The notes beneath the pieces are model-generated. The model was given only the letters and a program-made list of their open reading frames with translations, had not been told where the DNA came from and ran no database searches. The translations under genes and the position numbers were made by a program. 35,011 nucleotides of DNA from assembly GCA_022844135.1 (NCBI GenBank), contig JALHMG010000050.1, forward strand, positions 1 to 35,011, written 5' to 3'. The DNA is from Lysobacterales bacterium. GTDB taxonomy: Bacteria > Pseudomonadota > Gammaproteobacteria > Xanthomonadales > SZUA-5. Positions 20,831 to 34,353 of the stretch are shown here, in pieces (within the stretch, counting starts at the first letter, position 1; each line of letters starts with the position of its first letter).

Positions 20831-22597
20831 ATGACACTACAGATCCGGCGCGCATGCTCGGCGATCGCGCTCATGGGCGCATTGCTCATCGCATCGCCTG
20901 CCTTCTCGCAAACAGAAACCTTGTTCCGCGCGAATTTCGAAGACGTGACCGACGCGCCGGCGTCGGATGCGGAAGCGGCGCGATTTTTGACCCAGGCTAC
21001 CTTCGGCCCGACGCGCGCCGAAATTGCACGTTTGCGCGCCATCGGCTACGGGCAGTGGCTCGATCAGCAGTTTTCGATGCCGCCTACGCTGACGCGTCCG
21101 TGGCTCGATCAGTTGGTGCTCGATCCGGCCTTCTCGCTGAATTCCGGGCATCGCGTCGACCGCTTCTACTGGCAGGCGTCTTTTGCACCAGACCAATTGC
21201 GCCAGCGTATGGCGTTTGCGCTCAGCCAGATCCTGGTGGTGGCCGACACCGGCGGTATCGATACTCGCGTTGTCGCTGAGTATGCCGACTTGCTGACGCG
21301 CAGCGCTTTCGGCAATTACCGCACGCTGCTGGGGGATGTGACCTTCAGCTCGGCAATGGCCCAATGGCTCACCTATGTGCGCAATCGCGCGGCTTACCAA
21401 ACCGGCACGCCGCCGACTACGATCCTGCCCGACGAGAACTACGCCCGCGAGGTGATGCAGTTGTTCTCCTTCGGCTTGATCCAACGCAACATGGACTTCT
21501 CGCCGGTCCTGTCTGGCGGCAATCCGGTTCCGACCTATAACAACGACATCATCGCGCAGTTGGCGCGGGTGTTTACCGGCTTGAGCTACGGGCGCACGAA
21601 CTTCACCAATACCAGCTTCGGCAACAACACCAATGTCGATTTGATGTTGCCGATGGTGTGTTTCCCGATGAATTCGAACAACACCAACTACAACGCCACC
21701 GGCCGCACCTATCACGACTTCGCCAGCAAGGCGATTTTCAACGGCATCACGTTGCCTGCCGTCGCCGATTCCGAAGCTGGCTGCATGAGCGACATCAACG
21801 CCGCTTTAAATGCAATCGCCAATCACAGCTCGGTGCCGCCGTTCTATGCGCGACAGTTGATCCAACGCTTCACCACGTCCAACCCGTCGCCCGCTTACAT
21901 CCAGCGTGTGGCCAACGTGTTCGTCAATAACGGTCAGGGCGTGCGCGGCGACTTGCGTGCCGTCTTGCGCGCGGTGTTGATGGATGCGGAAGCCCGCGGC
22001 ACGCCGAGCGCGAACTTTGGCAAGCTGCGCGAGCCGGTGCTGCGGATGACGTCCTTGTGGCGCGCGTTGGACGTGGTTCAGGGTCAGCCCGAAACCGGCA
22101 GCAACATCGGCAACATCAGCTCGACGATCGGTTTCTCTGGCGACTTTGGGCAACGGCCGTATGGTTCGCCGTCGGTGTTCAACTTCTATGAACCGGACTA
22201 CCAACAGCCGGGCCCGATCCAGACGCAGAACTTGTACTCGCCCGAGTTCCAGATTCTCAACGAGTCCTCGGTGTCGCGGATGAACAATCTGTTGCGCAGC
22301 CGGGCAGTCGATTGGTACGTCGGCGCGTCTGGTATGCAGGCCACGTGGCCGCTGGTGTCGTTCGCTCCGTACTTGCAGATCATGCAGCAGCCGGGCAATG
22401 CAACCACTTACGGTCAGCTGATCGATGAGTTGAACATCCGCCTGATGTACGGCTCGATGAGCACCGCGATGCGCACGACTTTAGTCAACATGCTCACTGC
22501 GCAAACCGCGCCGACGACCGACGCTAATCGCATCGATCGCATCCGTCAGGTCCTGCGCGTAATCATCTTCTCCCCCGAATTCGCGGTTCAGAAGTAA
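20831..22597 (+). CDS. DUF1800 family secreted protein
   Basis: Exported protein of 588 residues with a signal peptide (1-26, cleavage after AFS). Just after it stands LFRANFED (31-38), related to the FANGFE tails found elsewhere in the window. Then the DUF1800 domain begins at AARFLTQATFGPTRAEI. Later typical segments are LPDENYAREVMQLFSFGL and PPFYARQLIQRFTTSNPSPAYI. The biochemical function of DUF1800 is unknown. The start is supported by GGGGG about six bases upstream. The next gene is DUF1501, 12 bp downstream. The two families are often paired, suggesting a common complex or pathway outside the cytoplasm. Confidence 0.9.
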   Translation: MTLQIRRACSAIALMGALLIASPAFSQTETLFRANFEDVTDAPASDAEAARFLTQATFGPTRAEIARLRAIGYGQWLDQQFSMPPTLTRPWLDQLVLDPAFSLNSGHRVDRFYWQASFAPDQLRQRMAFALSQILVVADTGGIDTRVVAEYADLLTRSAFGNYRTLLGDVTFSSAMAQWLTYVRNRAAYQTGTPPTTILPDENYAREVMQLFSFGLIQRNMDFSPVLSGGNPVPTYNNDIIAQLARVFTGLSYGRTNFTNTSFGNNTNVDLMLPMVCFPMNSNNTNYNATGRTYHDFASKAIFNGITLPAVADSEAGCMSDINAALNAIANHSSVPPFYARQLIQRFTTSNPSPAYIQRVANVFVNNGQGVRGDLRAVLRAVLMDAEARGTPSANFGKLREPVLRMTSLWRALDVVQGQPETGSNIGNISSTIGFSGDFGQRPYGSPSVFNFYEPDYQQPGPIQTQNLYSPEFQILNESSVSRMNNLLRSRAVDWYVGASGMQATWPLVSFAPYLQIMQQPGNATTYGQLIDELNIRLMYGSMSTAMRTTLVNMLTAQTAPTTDANRIDRIRQVLRVIIFSPEFAVQK

Positions 22598-22609
22598 GGA
22601 GCACCAGCC

Positions 22610-24238
22610 ATGTCACGTCAACAACGCGAAGCTCGCCGCGAGTTCTTGAAGAAGTTCGCCGCTCTCACCGCCTGCGGTTCGGCGATGTCGATGATTCCGC
22701 AACTGAAATTGATGCAGTCGGCGCTGGCACAATCGTCGCCGGAAGGCGATGCCGGATATCGCGCATTGGTCTGCGTATTCCTGGGCGGCGGCAACGATGC
22801 CTTCAACTGGCTGATTCCGCGCGATAACACGCGCTATGCGGTCTATCAGGCGTCGCGCGGCACGGGCACCGGCGGTCTGGCGATCGATCAGGCATCGTTG
22901 CTGCCGATCAATCTCACCGGCCCCGGCGGCGCCGCACTACCGGGCGGTCATCAGTACGGATTGCATCCGGCGTGCGCCGATTGGACGGCGGTGGATCGCA
23001 ACGGCGTTCAGACGGCCATGCCAGGTCTGGCCTCGCTGACCAATCAAGGCAAAGTTGCGTGGCTCTCGAACATCGGCAGTCTCGTGGTGCCGTTGACCAA
23101 AGCTAATTTCAACAATCCCGCGCTGCCCAAGCCCCCGCAGTTGTACTCGCACAACGATCAGACCAACCTGTGGTTCCAGGGCCGCGAAACCGCCAACTAT
23201 CGCTACGGCTGGGGCGGTCAGGTCGCCGATTTGCTGTTCGGCCTCAACTCACCGATTCCGGGCAGCAATCCCGTGACCACATTGCCCATGAACATCTCGT
23301 TCGCGGGCAGCAATCGCTTCCAGATTGGCGATCAGGTGGTGCCATATCAGATGTCCGGTTGCGGCAATCCCAACGGCGGCAACCCAGTGGCCGGCGAGAT
23401 TGTCGGGCAGAACTTCGCTAACTGCTCAGGAAGCAGTGCGCTGAGCGGGTTCCGCGCCTGCGGAACGGCGGGCCTGAATGCGTCGGAAGCGGCGCTATGC
23501 GATCTGCTCGATAACAACACATCCAACTTGATGCAAAACGAGCACGCCTCGGTTATGGCGCGTTCGATGGGGTTGGCTGGCAATCTGACAACGTTGCTGA
23601 CCGGCACGGTCAACAATCTTTCCCTGTTGAACACGCCATTCAGAGCGCTGGCGGACGATCAGGCGGTTGCCGGCTACAACCTTGCAGCCGATGGTGGCAA
23701 CTCGCTCGCCGAGCAATTGGCGATGGTTGCGCGCTTGATCAATATGCGCACGCAGCTCGGCCAGACGCGGAATATCTTCTTCGTGTCGCTCGGCGGCTTT
23801 GATACGCACGCCGCGCAAATGCCAGACACAGGCCAGCCGCGCTTGTTGCGCCGCATTTCGCGTGCGCTCGGTTCGTTCTATCGCGCACTCGTGGAAATGG
23901 GCGTAGAGAACAGCGTTACCACCTTCACGATGAGCGAGTTCGCGCGCACGTTGAACAGCAACGGCGATGGTTCCGATCACGGTTGGGGTGGTATCCAGCT
24001 GGTCATGGGCGGCGCCGTCAACGGCGGCAGCGCGGCGAGCGGTCGCCTGTATGGGACTTGGCCGGATATGACCTTGAATGGCGCCGATAGCTTCAGTCGA
24101 GGTCAGATGATCCCAACCACCGCGATGGATCAAATGGCGTCGACGCTGTCGTCGTGGATGGGTTTGACCCCGACGCAGATCAACACCATTTTCCCGAACG
24201 TCGATAACTTCCCTACGGCGAATCTGGGGTTCATGTAG
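22610..24238 (+). CDS. DUF1501 family protein with Tat-type signal
   Basis: Protein of 542 residues in the DUF1501 (alkaline-phosphatase/sulfatase-like fold) family. The N-terminus has RREFLKKFAAL (9-19), a twin-arginine signal, followed by a hydrophobic stretch and a cleavage site near MQSALAQ, so it is probably exported folded, perhaps with a metal. The domain starts LVCVFLGGGNDAFNWLIP. Later segments include FVSLGGFDTHAAQ, the TMSEFARTLNSNG segment and SDHGWGG, characteristic of the family and rich in possible metal ligands (Asp, His). AGGAG lies upstream of the ATG. It forms a two-gene operon with DUF1800. The substrate is unknown. Confidence 0.92.
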   Translation: MSRQQREARREFLKKFAALTACGSAMSMIPQLKLMQSALAQSSPEGDAGYRALVCVFLGGGNDAFNWLIPRDNTRYAVYQASRGTGTGGLAIDQASLLPINLTGPGGAALPGGHQYGLHPACADWTAVDRNGVQTAMPGLASLTNQGKVAWLSNIGSLVVPLTKANFNNPALPKPPQLYSHNDQTNLWFQGRETANYRYGWGGQVADLLFGLNSPIPGSNPVTTLPMNISFAGSNRFQIGDQVVPYQMSGCGNPNGGNPVAGEIVGQNFANCSGSSALSGFRACGTAGLNASEAALCDLLDNNTSNLMQNEHASVMARSMGLAGNLTTLLTGTVNNLSLLNTPFRALADDQAVAGYNLAADGGNSLAEQLAMVARLINMRTQLGQTRNIFFVSLGGFDTHAAQMPDTGQPRLLRRISRALGSFYRALVEMGVENSVTTFTMSEFARTLNSNGDGSDHGWGGIQLVMGGAVNGGSAASGRLYGTWPDMTLNGADSFSRGQMIPTTAMDQMASTLSSWMGLTPTQINTIFPNVDNFPTANLGFM

Positions 24239-27309: not shown

Positions 27310-29625
27310 ATGACTCGCAAGAAACTGACGCTGGCTATTGGTCACTCGTTGCTGACGCTCGCCGTCGCCTCCAGCGCCGCCGTCGCGGAAACCGCCACGC
27401 GCGAGCCGCCGAAACAATTCGATGCGATCGCCGTGCAGGGCGAGATCGTGTATCGCGATCGCACCGAGTCCACCGCGCCGGTGCTGGCGTACGACCTTGA
27501 ATACTTTCAACGCTTCGAGCCGTTGACGGTGGGCGATATGTTGAAGCGCGTGCCGAGCGTGGCCTTCGTGTCGGACGTGCTGGAGTACGATGGCGCGCGA
27601 CTGCGCGGCCTCGATCCGGGTTACACGCAGGTGTTAATCAACGGCAAGAAAGTGCCGGGTGCGGGCGATGATCGTTCGTTCTTTGTCGATCGCATCCCTG
27701 CCGAGTTGGTGGAGCGCATTGAGATCGTGCGCAGTGCCAGCGCCAATCGCTCTGGCGATGCGGTGGCGGGCGCACTGAATATCGTTCTGCGCGGCGCTTA
27801 CGAGTTCGATGGCGCCTACCTTCGCGCCGGTGCGCTGCATTTCGATGACGGCGAATGGAAACCCACCTACGGCGGCATCGCCAGCGGCGAATTTGCGGGC
27901 GGTCGTTTGCTGGGCGGTTTCAATGTGCAGGGGCGCTACAACCCGAAGCTCAAGCGCAGCGATCGCTTCGAGGAACCGGGCGGGGACTTTGTCGATGCCG
28001 AAGATCAAACCGATACCCGCGATGGCACCGACTACTCGGCGAACGCCTCGTACTCGCGCGAGTTCGGCGATAGCGGCCTGTTCACGCTGACTGGCGTGTA
28101 TGTGCTGACCGATCGCACCGAGACCGAGAACTCGCTCGAATACAACGTGCCGATTGCCAATCCGCGAAATCTGTTGTCGATCAACGACCAGGTGGTGGAT
28201 ATCGATCAGACCAATTACGTGCTCGCTGCAGATCTGGAAACGGAAGCTTTTGGCGGCAAGAACACGCTGGAGTTGAGCTATTCGGCGTTCGACGATGAGC
28301 GCTTCGACACCGAAGAGGAAGTCGGATTCGACGACGACGATACGCCACCGTCGTTCGACGAGTTCGAGGGTGTGCGCGAGTTGACCCAAGGCGACGACCG
28401 CGAGGTTGCGCTGTCGCTGGCGCACGCGCGCCCCTTTGGCGAGGCGACGCTCGAGTTTGGCCTGGATGTTCAGCGCAAGGATCGCGACGTCGAGATCGCG
28501 ACCTCGGAAGTCGATACCGATGAGGAAGGCGAGCCGTTGCCGCCCTACGATGATTTCGACATCGCGCGCAGTCAGATCGATGAGCGTCGGCTCGATCCGT
28601 ACATCATGCTCAGCGGCGGCGGCGATGCCTTCGATTGGGAAGCGGGTCTGCGCTACGAGACCACAGACGTGGACGTGGGCTTCGACGACGAGCGCGCCGA
28701 CAACGACTACGACGTGCTGCTGCCGAGCGCGCATTTGAAGTGGAATCTGAGCGAACTCGACCGCGTTACGCTGTCGTTGGCGCGCACCGTGCGCCGTCCG
28801 AACTTCAACTTCATCCTGCCGCTGACGCTGGAGGAAGAGTACGGCGACAACGATTTCGTCGGCAACCCGCTGCTCGATCCGGAATTGGCGTGGGGCATCG
28901 ACATCGGCTACGAGCGTCGTTTGGGTCGCGACGGCGTGCTCGGCATCAATGTGTTCTATCGCGATGTCAGCGATCTCATCGAGATCGTCAACACCGGCGA
29001 GCCGAGCGCGACCGCACGCGACGACTACGAGGAAGAGGTCGAGGAGTTTCTCGACGAAAATCCCGGCGCCAATCCGAATACGCCGGGCTATCCCGTTTTC
29101 GATCCCGACAGCTTCGTGTACACCGCCGACAACGTCGGCGATGGCGAGGTGTACGGCGTCGAGATCGACTTGTCGACGCCGCTGACCAGCCTCGGGCTGC
29201 CGCACACAGGCGTGTTCGCCAATTACGCCTGGCTCGATAGCAATATCGAAGACTTCGCGGGCGAGCGCCGCTTTAACGACCAGGCGCGCTTCGTGTACAA
29301 CGTTGGCTTCATCCACGATTTGCCCGACAGCGGCTGGAGTTTCGGCGCGAGCTATCGCAAACAAGGCGATGCTTTTTCGCGCTTGCTCGCCGAAGAAGTG
29401 CGGACCGAATACGGCGCCGATTTGGAGGCCTTTATCGAGAAGCGCTTCGGCACGCAGTTCTCCGTACGCCTGACCGGTTCGAATCTGCTCGATGCGTCGA
29501 AGGACGAGTTCTTCAATAAGTTCGATACTGAAGCGGACCAGTTGGACCGCGATTTCGACGAGTTCGAGATCGAGACAGAGACCGCGGGCCCGGTGTATCA
29601 GCTGATCGCACGCTATGCGTTTTGA
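27310..29625 (+). CDS. TonB-dependent outer-membrane receptor, strongly acidic
   Basis: Outer-membrane active transporter of 771 residues. A signal peptide (1-26, cleavage near AVA) is followed by a TonB-box-like FDAIAVQG (37-44), a plug domain (about 50-170) containing LRGLDPGYTQVLINGKK and RIEIVRSASANRSGDAVAGALNIV, then a beta-barrel of strands ending in the aromatic C-terminus YQLIARYAF. The outer loops are very rich in Asp and Glu (for example FDDDDTPPSFDEFEG near 340), suggesting binding of cations or a positively charged ligand. It lies 10 bp before an alkaline-phosphatase-like gene, so the pair may take up a phosphorylated or metal-linked nutrient. The substrate is unknown. Confidence 0.93.
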   Translation: MTRKKLTLAIGHSLLTLAVASSAAVAETATREPPKQFDAIAVQGEIVYRDRTESTAPVLAYDLEYFQRFEPLTVGDMLKRVPSVAFVSDVLEYDGARLRGLDPGYTQVLINGKKVPGAGDDRSFFVDRIPAELVERIEIVRSASANRSGDAVAGALNIVLRGAYEFDGAYLRAGALHFDDGEWKPTYGGIASGEFAGGRLLGGFNVQGRYNPKLKRSDRFEEPGGDFVDAEDQTDTRDGTDYSANASYSREFGDSGLFTLTGVYVLTDRTETENSLEYNVPIANPRNLLSINDQVVDIDQTNYVLAADLETEAFGGKNTLELSYSAFDDERFDTEEEVGFDDDDTPPSFDEFEGVRELTQGDDREVALSLAHARPFGEATLEFGLDVQRKDRDVEIATSEVDTDEEGEPLPPYDDFDIARSQIDERRLDPYIMLSGGGDAFDWEAGLRYETTDVDVGFDDERADNDYDVLLPSAHLKWNLSELDRVTLSLARTVRRPNFNFILPLTLEEEYGDNDFVGNPLLDPELAWGIDIGYERRLGRDGVLGINVFYRDVSDLIEIVNTGEPSATARDDYEEEVEEFLDENPGANPNTPGYPVFDPDSFVYTADNVGDGEVYGVEIDLSTPLTSLGLPHTGVFANYAWLDSNIEDFAGERRFNDQARFVYNVGFIHDLPDSGWSFGASYRKQGDAFSRLLAEEVRTEYGADLEAFIEKRFGTQFSVRLTGSNLLDASKDEFFNKFDTEADQLDRDFDEFEIETETAGPVYQLIARYAF

Positions 29626-29635
29626 GGACAGATCG

Positions 29636-30928
29636 ATGACTAAATCGCTGATGGTGGCACTGGCGCTGCTGGCCTGCGGCGGCGTCTGCGCCGAATCGCC
29701 GCACAGCGCGATTTTTCTGCATCCCGATGGCATGGGCGCAAACACCTGGGCAGCGCTGCGGCTGAAGGAAGTGGGTCCCGACGGGCGCCTGAACTGGGAT
29801 CGACTGCCGCGGCTGGCGATTTACGTCGGCCCGATGCTCGACTCGGTGGCCGCATCCTCCAACGGCGGCGCAACCACACATGCATACGGCGTGCGTGCGG
29901 CGCTCGACGACTTCGGGATGGTCGGCGGCAAACGTCCGGTCGCGGCCTCCGGCAAAGCCGAGAGTGTGATGCACGCGGCGAAGTCGGCCGGCAAAGCGAT
30001 TGCGATCATCAACTCCTCCAGCATCACCGAGCCCGGCACGGCGGCCTTTCTGGCTTCGGTTGCCGATCGCGACAATGAAACCGAGATCGCCGCGCAAATA
30101 CTCGCGGCAAGGCCGGACGTGATTTTGGGCGGCGGCGAGATGTTCATGCTGCCCAAAGGGCAAAAAGGTCGCCATGGAAAAGGTGTACGCGAGGATGGTC
30201 GCAACCTGATCGCGGAGGCCGCCAAGGCCGGCTATCGCGTGGTGTACACGCGCGAAGAGCTGCGCGCTGCGCCCCTCGATGGCAAGCCGCTACTCGGCGT
30301 GTTTGCCGCCGAAGCCACGTTCAACGAGTACGACGAAGCGGGTCTCGCCAAGCGCAAACTCGCCGCCTACCAACCACATGCGCCGCGCTTCGATGAGATG
30401 CTGGCGGTCGCCCTCAGTCGCGTTCGCGATGCAAAAAACGGTTACCTGATCGTTGCCAATGAAGAGGGCACCGACAACTTGTCGGGCGAGAACAACGCGC
30501 CGGCGACGCTGGAAGCGGCCGCCGGCGCAGACCGCGCCATCGGTCTGGCCTTGGCGGAAGCCAACGCCAATTCCGCCCTGACGGTCATCGTCGCTTCCGA
30601 CTCCGACAATGGCGGCATGAACGCCACTGGCGACGATCTCGATGAGTTACCCCGGCCGCTCCCTAAGCGCATGGAGAACGGCTCGCCGCTCGATAGCGAC
30701 GATGGCAAACCGTTTCTGGCGGCGCCCGACGCACGCGGCGTGCGCCAGCCGTTCTATGTGAGCTGGGCCTCGGGCGACGATATGGGCGGTGGCACTGTGG
30801 CCCGTGGCATCGGCCCAGGCGCTCGCGTTATCGAAGGCACGATCGATTCCACAGTCATCTATCGCTCGCTGTATGAAGGGTTGTTTGCCGTAGAGCCAAA
30901 CGCCGAGCCATTGCCGCAGTCGCAGTGA
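29636..30928 (+). CDS. Divergent alkaline-phosphatase-family protein lacking usual His ligands
   Basis: Secreted protein of 430 residues with a signal peptide (1-19). The fold is recognisable by HPDGMGANTW (29-38, with the conserved Asp31), SSITEPGTAAFLAS and DVILGGGEMF. Yet the usual metal sites are altered. The EGGRIDHAGH-type motif is NEEGTDNLSG (275-284), so only Asp280 remains. The ADHETGG motif is SDSDNGG (321-327), with Ser in place of His. The C-terminal HTGEDVP-like His motif reads SGDDMGGG. The nucleophile motif is also unusual (LDSVAASSNGGATTHAYGV, 68-86). Either it uses other ligands, perhaps a different metal, or it is not a phosphatase. It is coupled to the receptor gene (10-bp gap, GAGG upstream). 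Confidence 0.85.
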   Translation: MTKSLMVALALLACGGVCAESPHSAIFLHPDGMGANTWAALRLKEVGPDGRLNWDRLPRLAIYVGPMLDSVAASSNGGATTHAYGVRAALDDFGMVGGKRPVAASGKAESVMHAAKSAGKAIAIINSSSITEPGTAAFLASVADRDNETEIAAQILAARPDVILGGGEMFMLPKGQKGRHGKGVREDGRNLIAEAAKAGYRVVYTREELRAAPLDGKPLLGVFAAEATFNEYDEAGLAKRKLAAYQPHAPRFDEMLAVALSRVRDAKNGYLIVANEEGTDNLSGENNAPATLEAAAGADRAIGLALAEANANSALTVIVASDSDNGGMNATGDDLDELPRPLPKRMENGSPLDSDDGKPFLAAPDARGVRQPFYVSWASGDDMGGGTVARGIGPGARVIEGTIDSTVIYRSLYEGLFAVEPNAEPLPQSQ

Positions 30929-32785: not shown

Positions 32786-33058
32786 ATGGTTACTTGGGAC
32801 ACAGAAAAGCTCTCAGCCAACATCGTCAAGCATGGCTTGAGCTTTGAGGGTGCTGACGCGGTTTTTGACTATCCCGTGGTGTCCTGGGAAGACAGCCGAG
32901 AAGACTACGGCGAGTTGCGTATCAACTTGCTGGGTTGGCTCAATGGTCAAATGGTGCATGTGACCTACACAGAGCGCGGTGACGCCATGCACGTCATTTC
33001 ACTGCGCGAGGCGCAAACCCATGAAATCAAACGCTACATCAAAGCCATATCCAACTAG
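32786..33058 (+). CDS. brnT: BrnT-type ribonuclease toxin
   Basis: RelE-fold toxin of 90 residues that inhibits translation by cutting RNA. It shows WDTEKLSANIVKHGLSFEGADAVF (a WD.xK..NxxKHGxSFExA signature), then GELRINLLGWLNG, VHVTYTERG and MHVISLREAQTHE, the usual order of BrnT family motifs. There is no Shine-Dalgarno. The ATG is about six bases after the second promoter's -10 box, so a leaderless message is possible. The antitoxin brnA overlaps its end by 38 bp. It is the first gene of the putative integron cassette. Confidence 0.9.
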   Translation: MVTWDTEKLSANIVKHGLSFEGADAVFDYPVVSWEDSREDYGELRINLLGWLNGQMVHVTYTERGDAMHVISLREAQTHEIKRYIKAISN

Positions 33059-33353
33059 CGCGGCGGCTTGGCAGGCAGTTCTGGCCAAAGCGCCCAAAGG
33101 CAAGACCACGCTCAGCCGTGCAGACGAGGCCGCTATCGAGTCCCGCAGTGTCGTGGTGCGGAGCGGTGGCATGGCTGCGGTTCGCGCGGCCTTGGAAGCG
33201 CGCAAGCCTGGGCAGCGCGGCCCGCAAAAAGCACCAACCAAAAAACTTGTTTCTCTGCGCTTGTCACCCGAAGTCTTGACTTACTTCAGGAGCACAGGCG
33301 ACGGCTGGCAGTCGCGCATTGACGAGGCATTGCGCAAGATTGCAGGTGTTTGA
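33021..33353 (+). CDS. brnA: BrnA-type antitoxin
   Basis: Antitoxin of 110 residues. The N-terminal half is polar and probably binds the toxin. The C-terminal half has a ribbon-helix-helix-like segment KKLVSLRLSPEVLTYFRSTG followed by WQSRIDEALRKIAG, the family DNA-binding part. Order toxin then antitoxin, with overlap, is the standard for brnTA. The start at 33021 (MKSNATSK) was chosen because the upstream frame to 32979 encodes residues inside brnT with no family likeness. It should repress the operon through the GTAGCTAC sites. The stop codon is followed by an attC-like site 16 bp later. Confidence 0.88.
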   Translation: MKSNATSKPYPTSAAAWQAVLAKAPKGKTTLSRADEAAIESRSVVVRSGGMAAVRAALEARKPGQRGPQKAPTKKLVSLRLSPEVLTYFRSTGDGWQSRIDEALRKIAGV

Positions 33354-33368
33354 TTCCGGCAGCGTTTA

Positions 33369-33458
33369 GCCCAACATCATACTCAAGCGGACCGCCGGTC
33401 TAGTGGGTTGCTTCGACCAATCATGCTCAAGCGGCGGCCGCTTAGCTCAACGTAAGGT
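33369..33458 (+). mobile_element. attC-like integron recombination site after brnA
   Basis: The inverse core GCCCAAC (33369-33375) is followed by AAGCGG-A-CCGCC (33385-33396) and, after a variable loop, its complement GGCGGCCGCTT (33433-33443). One base, A33391, is left extrahelical, as in true attC hairpins recognised by integron integrases. CTCAAC precedes a degenerate core GTAAGGT (33452-33458, GTTRRRY with one mismatch). The length of 90 bp is in the usual attC range. GTTGGGC at 32708-32714 is the exact partner of the inverse core for the brnTA cassette. Confidence 0.6.
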
Positions 33459-33477
33459 CCGCGAAACCAACATCATC

Positions 33478-34353
33478 ATGCTTCCCAGCATTTTTCTAAG
33501 CCACAACCACGCCGACAAGCCCTTCGTCTGTCGCCTCGCCGCCGACCTGGACAATCAAGGTATTCCGTGCTGGCTTGATGAAGCGGAGATCAAGGTCGGG
33601 GAATCGCTCATCGATAAGATCCGCGCCGGAATCGACAGAGTCGACTTCGTCGCAGTCGTGCTCTCGCCCGACTCTGTTGCTTCCCCCTGGGTTCAGCGTG
33701 AAGTCGATGTCGCCATGAATCAGGAAATCATGGGTCGTCGCGTGAAGGTTTTGCCATTGATGTACCGAACCTGCGACCTACCTGGATTCCTTCTAGGTAA
33801 GCGCTACGCAAACTTCACAGACGAAAGCCGGTATCCAACTGCTTTCGAAGACCTTGTGAAGAGCGTTGGCGTAGTGTTCAACAGGAACGCCTTCGCCCCA
33901 CCGGCGAACGCCACGAATCTCGGTCAGGCTCTCGACAAGGCGTGGACTAAGGCACTACCGATGCTGATTCGTCCGTTTCATCGCCCGTTTCAGTACATGG
34001 GCATGACCATCCAGGACGCAGCTCGCGCCACTGGTGGAATACCAAACGATGTTGGAAACATCATCCTGGACACCGACGACTGTCACATGTGCCTGGAAGC
34101 CGAAGGCAACTTCATCAGCTACGTGGACATAGAACTCAAAAAGACCGCACCACATCGGCAAGATCAAGAGTTCGATTCTGAGGTGGTCCTGGGTGCCCTA
34201 AGCATCAATCCTTCGGAACTGGAATTGGTTCGCAAGAAGACCCACTTCCACACCTACTACGACCACAAGAAGCGCTTGAAAGTCAGCGTCTCCTGCCTCT
34301 ATGACGGCGCGCCTCTCTCCGTGGGCTTCAGCAGCAAGTACTACGGCATGTAG
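33478..34353 (+). CDS. TIR-domain protein, candidate NADase/defence effector
   Basis: Protein of 291 residues. The TIR domain (about 3-135) starts SIFLSHNHADKPFVCRLA, has CWLDEAEIKVGESL, VDFVAVVLSPDSVASPWVQRE with Glu75 at the position of the catalytic glutamate of NAD-cleaving TIR domains, and a VKVLPLMY strand. The C-terminal 150 residues (about 150-291) match nothing I know; they contain RPFHRPFQYMGMTIQDAA and a strand-rich, Lys/His-rich end. There is no signal peptide or membrane segment. It starts 25 bp after the attC-like core, with only AAGG about 20 bases upstream. A cytoplasmic abortive-infection role is plausible by analogy but unproven. A start at 33403 would lie inside the attC site. 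Confidence 0.85.
   Translation: MLPSIFLSHNHADKPFVCRLAADLDNQGIPCWLDEAEIKVGESLIDKIRAGIDRVDFVAVVLSPDSVASPWVQREVDVAMNQEIMGRRVKVLPLMYRTCDLPGFLLGKRYANFTDESRYPTAFEDLVKSVGVVFNRNAFAPPANATNLGQALDKAWTKALPMLIRPFHRPFQYMGMTIQDAARATGGIPNDVGNIILDTDDCHMCLEAEGNFISYVDIELKKTAPHRQDQEFDSEVVLGALSINPSELELVRKKTHFHTYYDHKKRLKVSVSCLYDGAPLSVGFSSKYYGM

Follow-up and report, generated by a model that had tools for sequence, protein, structure and literature searches.

An alkaline phosphatase-fold clade with every zinc-binding histidine replaced, encoded in part beside TonB-dependent receptors

Alkaline phosphatase is a textbook two-zinc enzyme and a main model for changes of metal and substrate within enzyme superfamilies. 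Here we report that a 35,011-nucleotide stretch of bacterial DNA (the window) carries an intact gene for a 430-residue protein, predicted to have the alkaline phosphatase fold, in which all three zinc-binding histidines are replaced, and that the same replacements run through an entire clade of relatives. These clade-wide replacements suggest that the enzyme was remodelled to use another metal, or else became a binding protein, in both cases aiding phosphorus scavenging. A clade that has kept the nucleophile and lost every zinc histidine would offer a natural experiment on how metal and substrate change.

An intact gene for a protein with the alkaline phosphatase fold

The gene occupies 29636..30928 on the forward strand, where the reading frame, described as intact in an earlier note on this DNA, is indeed open over its whole length. 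Its product was assigned by the PF00245 match and by profile alignment. The N-terminus is a signal peptide or possibly a lipobox (LLAC). Against Pfam the protein scored 109.9 bits with Alk_phosphatase (PF00245; cut-off 24.4), a match that covers only positions 5-324 of the 423 in the profile, and the scan returned no other family at E 0.001. The NCBIfam PhoA equivalog model gave 36.5, far under its cut-off of 540. The gene is the sole PF00245 match in its own genome. When the profile of the His-less proteins was aligned with that of canonical enzymes using hhalign, the alignment was global, with a probability of 100 and E 5.6e-63.

A model of the window protein was predicted with AlphaFold2 from a 15-row alignment (pTM 0.81, mean pLDDT 71.7). 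Foldseek with this predicted model gave Vibrio alkaline phosphatase 7qp8 as its best match (E 1.3e-18), and VIA gave 7qow (Z 33.8, rmsd 3.0, 322 residues aligned), with alkaline phosphatase entries among the 50 matches listed by each. We conclude from the predicted model that the window protein has the alkaline phosphatase fold. Because pLDDT is below 50 at residues 41-79, which include the nucleophile segment, and over most of residues 319-366, no active-site geometry is claimed.

All three zinc histidines are replaced, and the serine nucleophile is kept

Active-site positions were compared between a His-less profile of 24 rows, 23 of them distinct, and a canonical profile of 38 rows, 36 of them distinct after two duplicates had been removed. 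The canonical rows were E. coli PhoA, an enzyme from a Priestia plasmid, six proteins from relatives and, from the order survey, the 30 PF00245 proteins with the highest scores, a selection that biases the controls toward canonical forms. Rows from the same place as others were dropped (L018/L036, equal to L011; L037, equal to L017; L039, equal to L019; L040, equal to L020; L029, equal to L021), as were L001/L016/L034, which are the window itself. L033 is identical to L010 and was counted once, and L022 was excluded as a 79-residue partial match.

For PhoA we take the Zn1 ligands to be D327, H331 and H412, the Zn2 ligands to be D51, D369 and H370, and the third metal site to consist of D51, D/H153, T155 and E322. 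In the profile alignment the window equivalents are D31 for D51, S74 for D101, S75 for S102, H82 for W109, E132 for D153, G134 for T155, R145 for R166, N275 for E322, D280 for D327, G284 for H331, D322 for D369, S323 for H370 and D382 for H412.

All three zinc histidines are replaced in 23/23 distinct His-less members and in 0/36 controls, which have His at H331, H370 and H412 in 36/36. The H331 position holds Gly in 17 members, including the window protein, and Asn in 6; the H370 position is Ser in 23/23 and the H412 position, D382 at 30779..30781 (+), is Asp in 23/23. The earlier note had read exactly these substitutions, and it had also rightly picked out Asp31 and Asp280 as retained: the D51, D327 and D369 positions are Asp in every member (23/23). 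Its remark that the nucleophile segment is unlike DSAAT/S applies to the segment, which reads SSNGG, but not to the serine itself, since the S102 position is Ser in 23/23. This segment, S74-S75-N76...H82-A83, lies at 29855..29884 (+), with N76 shared by 22/23 members and the D101 position read as Ser in 18 and Thr in 5. The phosphate-binding R166 position is Arg in 22 members and Gly in 1.

Changes extend to the third metal site and its surroundings. Within E132-P-G134-T (30029..30040, +) the D153 position is Glu in 21 members and Asp in 2, and the T155 position is Gly in 23/23. The segment N275-E-E277-G-T-D280-N281-L-S-G284 (30458..30487, +) covers PhoA E322, D327 and H331; here the E322 position is Asn in 15 members and Glu in 8, the A324 position (window E277) is Glu in 23/23, and the K328 position (window N281) is Asn in 23/23. 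D322-S323-D324 (30599..30607, +) corresponds to the D369-H370 segment, with D322 and S323 both found in 23/23. The controls keep D51, S102, T155, R166, E322, D327 and D369 in 36/36. Measured against the Zn2Mg PhoA type, then, the His-less set retains the Asp of Zn1 and has both of its His replaced, retains the two Asp of Zn2 with Ser in place of H370, and departs from the third site by Gly at 155 (23/23) and Asn at 322 (15/23), while Ser102 and Arg166 are present in 23/23 and 22/23. From this we infer a different metal or activity for the His-less clade.

Most of the substitutes for histidine are oxygen donors (Asp for H412 and Ser for H370 in 23/23, Asn for H331 in 6/23), and the set has gained acids, with E277 in 23/23 and Glu or Asp at the D153 position in 23/23. 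The Gly found at the H331 position in 17/23 members leaves no side-chain ligand there. Judged from the alignment, the appearance of Gly at both the H331 and the T155 positions argues against a simple exchange of one metal for another, and the losses as a group (D101, T155, H331 to Gly and often E322) are equally what one would expect if an inactive enzyme had been turned to binding.

Two histidines are new. H29 forms part of H29-P-D31 (29720..29728, +), two residues before the D51 equivalent that bridges the metals in PhoA; it is invariant in the clade (23/23), and controls have I, V or L there (36/36). H82, at the W109 position, is likewise invariant (23/23) and none of the 36 controls has His there. 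One might therefore suppose an ordinary zinc enzyme whose histidine ligands are supplied by H29 and H82, and the invariance of both residues, together with their absence from the controls, is what such an enzyme would show. We think this very improbable, since three zinc histidines are gone and only two gained, and the other ligand positions are now Asp, Ser and Gly/Asn. The PhoA positions equivalent to H29 and H82 are not known to coordinate metal.

The sulfatases, which carry a formylglycine motif, belong to the same superfamily and bind metal through oxygen ligands in the pattern D,D,D,N. By analogy, the window protein could be a hydrolase of some other ester (a sulfate, phosphonate or phosphodiester) with a single Ca-type metal, having changed in parallel to the sulfatases. 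The oxygen-only ligands D31, D322 and S323 at the second metal site would suit this, and replacement of H331 and H412 would abolish the first zinc site. We regard it as improbable, if less so than the zinc enzyme with relocated ligands, because the protein is a clear PF00245 relative with a match to no other Pfam family at E 0.001 and because its neighbour genes, described below, indicate phosphorus.

No half-converted form was among four PF00245 proteins with low scores (L194, L195, L197 and L198) that were taken from nine hand-picked genomes of the order; all four keep the three histidines. Three of them (L194, L197 and L198, from genomes G092, G018 and G029) are divergent PF00245 proteins with frames of 393-531 aa and scores far under the family average, and L194 has Glu at the R166 position, where its alignment is uncertain. 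The most distant His-less member, L021:1486-3180, has 565 aa with insertions and retains the replacements.

The replacements mark one clade under purifying selection

In a PMSF tree, in which some long branches were flagged, a single branch with 100/100 support separates the 23 His-less rows from the 36 canonical rows. We conclude from this sequence tree that the His-less members are one clade. NG86 estimates of dN/dS in six His-less pairs were 0.116-0.200, indicating purifying selection, and YN00 gave 0.033 and 0.036 (values from two of the six pairs). The earlier note had suggested a subfamily with consistent replacements and not decay, and had proposed an alignment to see whether the replacements are conserved in a clade; both the clade and the invariance of its changes in 23/23 members bear this out.

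Among genome contigs, a profile search picked up 14 relatives, labelled Silanimonas, Lysobacteraceae, a Xanthomonadales bin, a Steroidobacteraceae MAG, two alphaproteobacterial MAGs and a Hyphomonadaceae MAG; most relatives are metagenome bins, so that the taxonomic labels may be wrong. Among 299 genomes of the order, 10 hold a His-less protein at E 1e-40 or better and 161 hold any PF00245 protein, and three (G031, G066 and G236) hold a canonical enzyme alongside the His-less one. In a phylum sample of 398 genomes, the His-less protein was found in the window's own genome only. Viral contigs gave 44 pattern matches and no relative of the window protein.

Such a sparse distribution is the one feature that would fit a redundant phosphatase decaying at random, or an artefact of alignment. 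Against this stand the open frames, the low dN/dS in all six pairs, replacements that stay the same in members whose identity to the window protein is 35-72%, a profile alignment that is global, and an own genome without another PF00245 match. We give decay or artefact a negligible chance: random decay and alignment error are contradicted by the global alignment, the invariant replacements, the 100/100 clade and dN/dS.

The closer subclade is linked to TonB-dependent receptors

Immediately upstream of the phosphatase gene, at 27310..29625 on the forward strand, lies a gene for a TonB-dependent receptor of 771 aa (PF00593, PF07715). Its stop codon falls within tttTGAggacagatcgATG, only 10 bases separate it from the phosphatase gene, and a Shine-Dalgarno-like GAGGA overlaps the stop codon. 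The own genome has 28 Plug domains in 5.34 Mb. Further upstream, between a phosphoglycerate kinase gene and the receptor gene, is a 2OG-Fe(II) oxygenase gene (PF13759; 26545..27231, +), of which no homologue at E 1e-8 was found near the phosphatase genes of 25 related loci. The window has 3 Pho box sites, a number equalled by 29/100 shuffles and so not above chance.

Two other parts of the window stand apart from this gene pair. At 32786-34353 is a possible defence-type island, in which a BrnT-type toxin gene (PF04365) is followed by a small gene (32979-33353) that by eye resembles the BrnA antitoxin and by a gene for a TIR-domain protein (PF13676; 33403-34353). At 20831-24238, DUF1800 and DUF1501 genes adjoin.

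Linkage was counted with a receptor profile under one rule for every locus, namely a receptor within 1.5 kb of the phosphatase gene. The profile was built from eight receptors, mostly adjoining His-less genes. L002 was omitted for its short flank (190 bases downstream), as was L012, whose flanks measure about 1.7 kb (upstream) and 1.0 kb (downstream) and contain no receptor. A TonB-dependent receptor was present in 13/15 closer-subclade members with enough flanking sequence, the two lacking a receptor being L015 and L044, and in 0/6 members of the deeper subclade (L019, L020, L021, L038, L041 and L042), which makes 13/21 for all His-less members with flank. The canonical loci had one in 2/40, and in two of the 40 one flank is shorter than 2.5 kb. 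Fisher tests gave p 7e-9 for 13/15 vs 2/40 and p 2e-6 for 13/21 vs 2/40, values to be read in the knowledge that related loci are not independent. The earlier note's statement that the gene is coupled to a transporter is thus right for the window and the closer subclade but does not extend to the deeper one, and the fold's function would not need the receptor everywhere.

Because the receptor profile might favour receptors of His-less loci, we scanned the surroundings of canonical genes with Pfam. In the 20 of 58 large frames that were scanned, the only receptor was one already counted, in L170. The profile also picked up a different receptor type, in L139.

Homologues of the window receptor with 51-54% identity adjoin the phosphatase gene in L003-L007, L009, L011/L045 and L046. 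Within this one receptor family the two genes are on the same strand (window, L045), convergent (L003-L007, L009) or divergent (L046), and in L009 they are 1.4 kb apart. More distant receptor families adjoin the His-less gene in L008, L010, L013 and L014.

This linkage bears on whether the clade is catalytic at all. A pseudoenzyme that has lost catalysis could capture a phosphorylated or otherwise anionic ligand on the cell surface, then pass it to the TonB-dependent receptor, as SusD-type lipoproteins do for SusC. The loss of the three zinc histidines, D101, T155 and often E322 would agree with such a role, as would the proximity of receptor genes in the closer subclade and a lipobox-like motif in L002, L004, L005, L006, L008, L010 and L013 and perhaps in the window protein. 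However, the nucleophile serine (23/23) and R166 (22/23) are kept, although the serine would be superfluous in a binder; the residues gained by the clade are invariant as well; and the deeper subclade is without the receptor. On balance a pseudoenzyme appears rather unlikely to us, though it is the most plausible of the alternatives.

A phytase-like lipoprotein is found beside the same receptor

An orthologue of the window receptor at E 1e-120 is present in 28/299 genomes of the order. The His-less phosphatase adjoins it in 3 of these 28 (the window's genome, G011 and G031). In the other 25, at loci L112-L136, a single family of phytase-like lipoproteins directly adjoins the receptor in 22 (for example L115:7796-8920 and L123:8138-9268), divergently in 22/22. 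At L127, L131 and L135 the phytase-like gene is not beside the receptor orthologue; L131 comes from G236, whose His-less gene sits at another place.

A weak and partial kinship of this family to beta-propeller phytases was seen in several comparisons. All of the neighbours tested (5/5) scored above the PF02333 cut-off, at 21.8-24.7 vs 21 bits, in weak matches over 90-126 of 375 profile positions. With a profile of the C-terminal part, the PDB matches were 3-phytases only (best 3amr, E 0.0012), and with the whole-length profile NHL propellers came first and a 3-phytase followed at 4.7e-4. A model predicted from a single sequence was unreliable (pLDDT 45). A common cysteine stands at a lipobox-like position in the 12 aligned members, and the family occurs at E 1e-40 in 80/299 genomes of the order.

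Both partners can also be found together. In L004, phosphatase, receptor and phytase-like genes follow one another, the last cut by the contig end, and L008, from Silanimonas lenta, has the phosphatase, another receptor and a phytase-like gene. The window's own genome carries a phytase-like copy on contig C53 (23645-27139; L139:3333-7211), convergent with a different TonB-dependent receptor. Judging by linkage, the phosphatase and the phytase-like lipoprotein seem able either to stand in for one another or to add to one another at a single receptor, which points to organic phosphate.

Discussion

Taken together, we give an even chance to the reading that the clade consists of phosphoesterases built on the alkaline phosphatase fold, with a site for one of the hard, oxygen-liking metals Ca, Mg and Mn, working in an organophosphate-scavenging module, in which we infer the activity, metal, substrate and location. 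The window protein would be a secreted phosphoesterase, and in some relatives it is probably an outer-membrane lipoprotein. Its zinc sites would have become a centre rich in carboxylates, with oxygen ligands throughout, for the hard ions Ca2+, Mg2+ or Mn2+, in which the nucleophile S75, the phosphate-binding R145 and the metal-binding D31, D280 and D322 would still serve, D382, S323, E132, E277 and N281 might take the place of the lost ligands or add to the site, and the new H29 and H82 could act as a metal ligand or in acid/base catalysis. Such a protein would act at or outside the outer membrane together with the adjoining TonB-dependent receptor, cleaving or trimming an organic phosphate of which the receptor would take in the product or the substrate. 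It would hold the partner place that a phytase-like lipoprotein usually fills beside the same receptor.

More tentatively, and clearly short of an even chance, we propose that a branch of the alkaline phosphatases has moved from zinc to Ca, Mg or Mn through oxygen ligands, with the Ser-Arg pair kept and two histidines gained, and has become interchangeable with a phytase relative at a receptor for an organophosphate, possibly phytate. The clade's link to TonB-dependent receptors and phytase-like lipoproteins suggests a phosphorus-scavenging module in Lysobacteraceae-type bacteria. For annotation, a PF00245 match should not be read as a zinc phosphatase before its ligands have been checked.

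The clade resembles the PhoA type of alkaline phosphatase (PF00245; E. coli PhoA, Vibrio alkaline phosphatase) in fold and in Ser102, Arg166, Asp51, Asp327 and Asp369. It differs from that type in the replacement of H331, H370, H412, D101 and T155, in the frequent Asn at E322 and in two new invariant histidines, and the Pfam match of the window protein reaches no further than position 324 in a profile of 423. The open-access literature, in the portions available to us, yielded no PF00245 clade without zinc histidines.

Pairing of phosphatases with outer-membrane receptors has precedents. Flavobacterium johnsoniae has the phosphate utilisation system PUSII, in which PusCD, a TonB-dependent outer-membrane receptor and a SusD-type lipoprotein, go with PhoA1 (PF00245) (PMC8115612). 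What this system has in common with the window is a gene pairing, that of PF00245 protein and TonB-dependent receptor; PUSII is unlike the window in belonging to Bacteroidetes and in having a SusD-type lipoprotein (PMC8115612). A TonB-dependent receptor adjoins a phytase gene in Citromicrobium bathyomarinum JL354 (PMC3400609), and Caulobacter has the phosphate-starvation lipoprotein ElpS with receptor Cc0171 (PMC2996285). By their descriptions these two resemble our loci in pairing a receptor with a phytase or a phosphate-starvation lipoprotein, and the accessible parts of both mention no His-less alkaline phosphatase (PMC3400609, PMC2996285). As for the metal, several types of phosphatase with conserved Asp/Glu motifs, including PhoA-aty of phytoplankton, are proposed to use Ca rather than Zn (PMC4548154). 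PhoA-aty is described there as distantly related to PhoA (PMC4548154), which sets it apart from the window protein, a direct member of PF00245.
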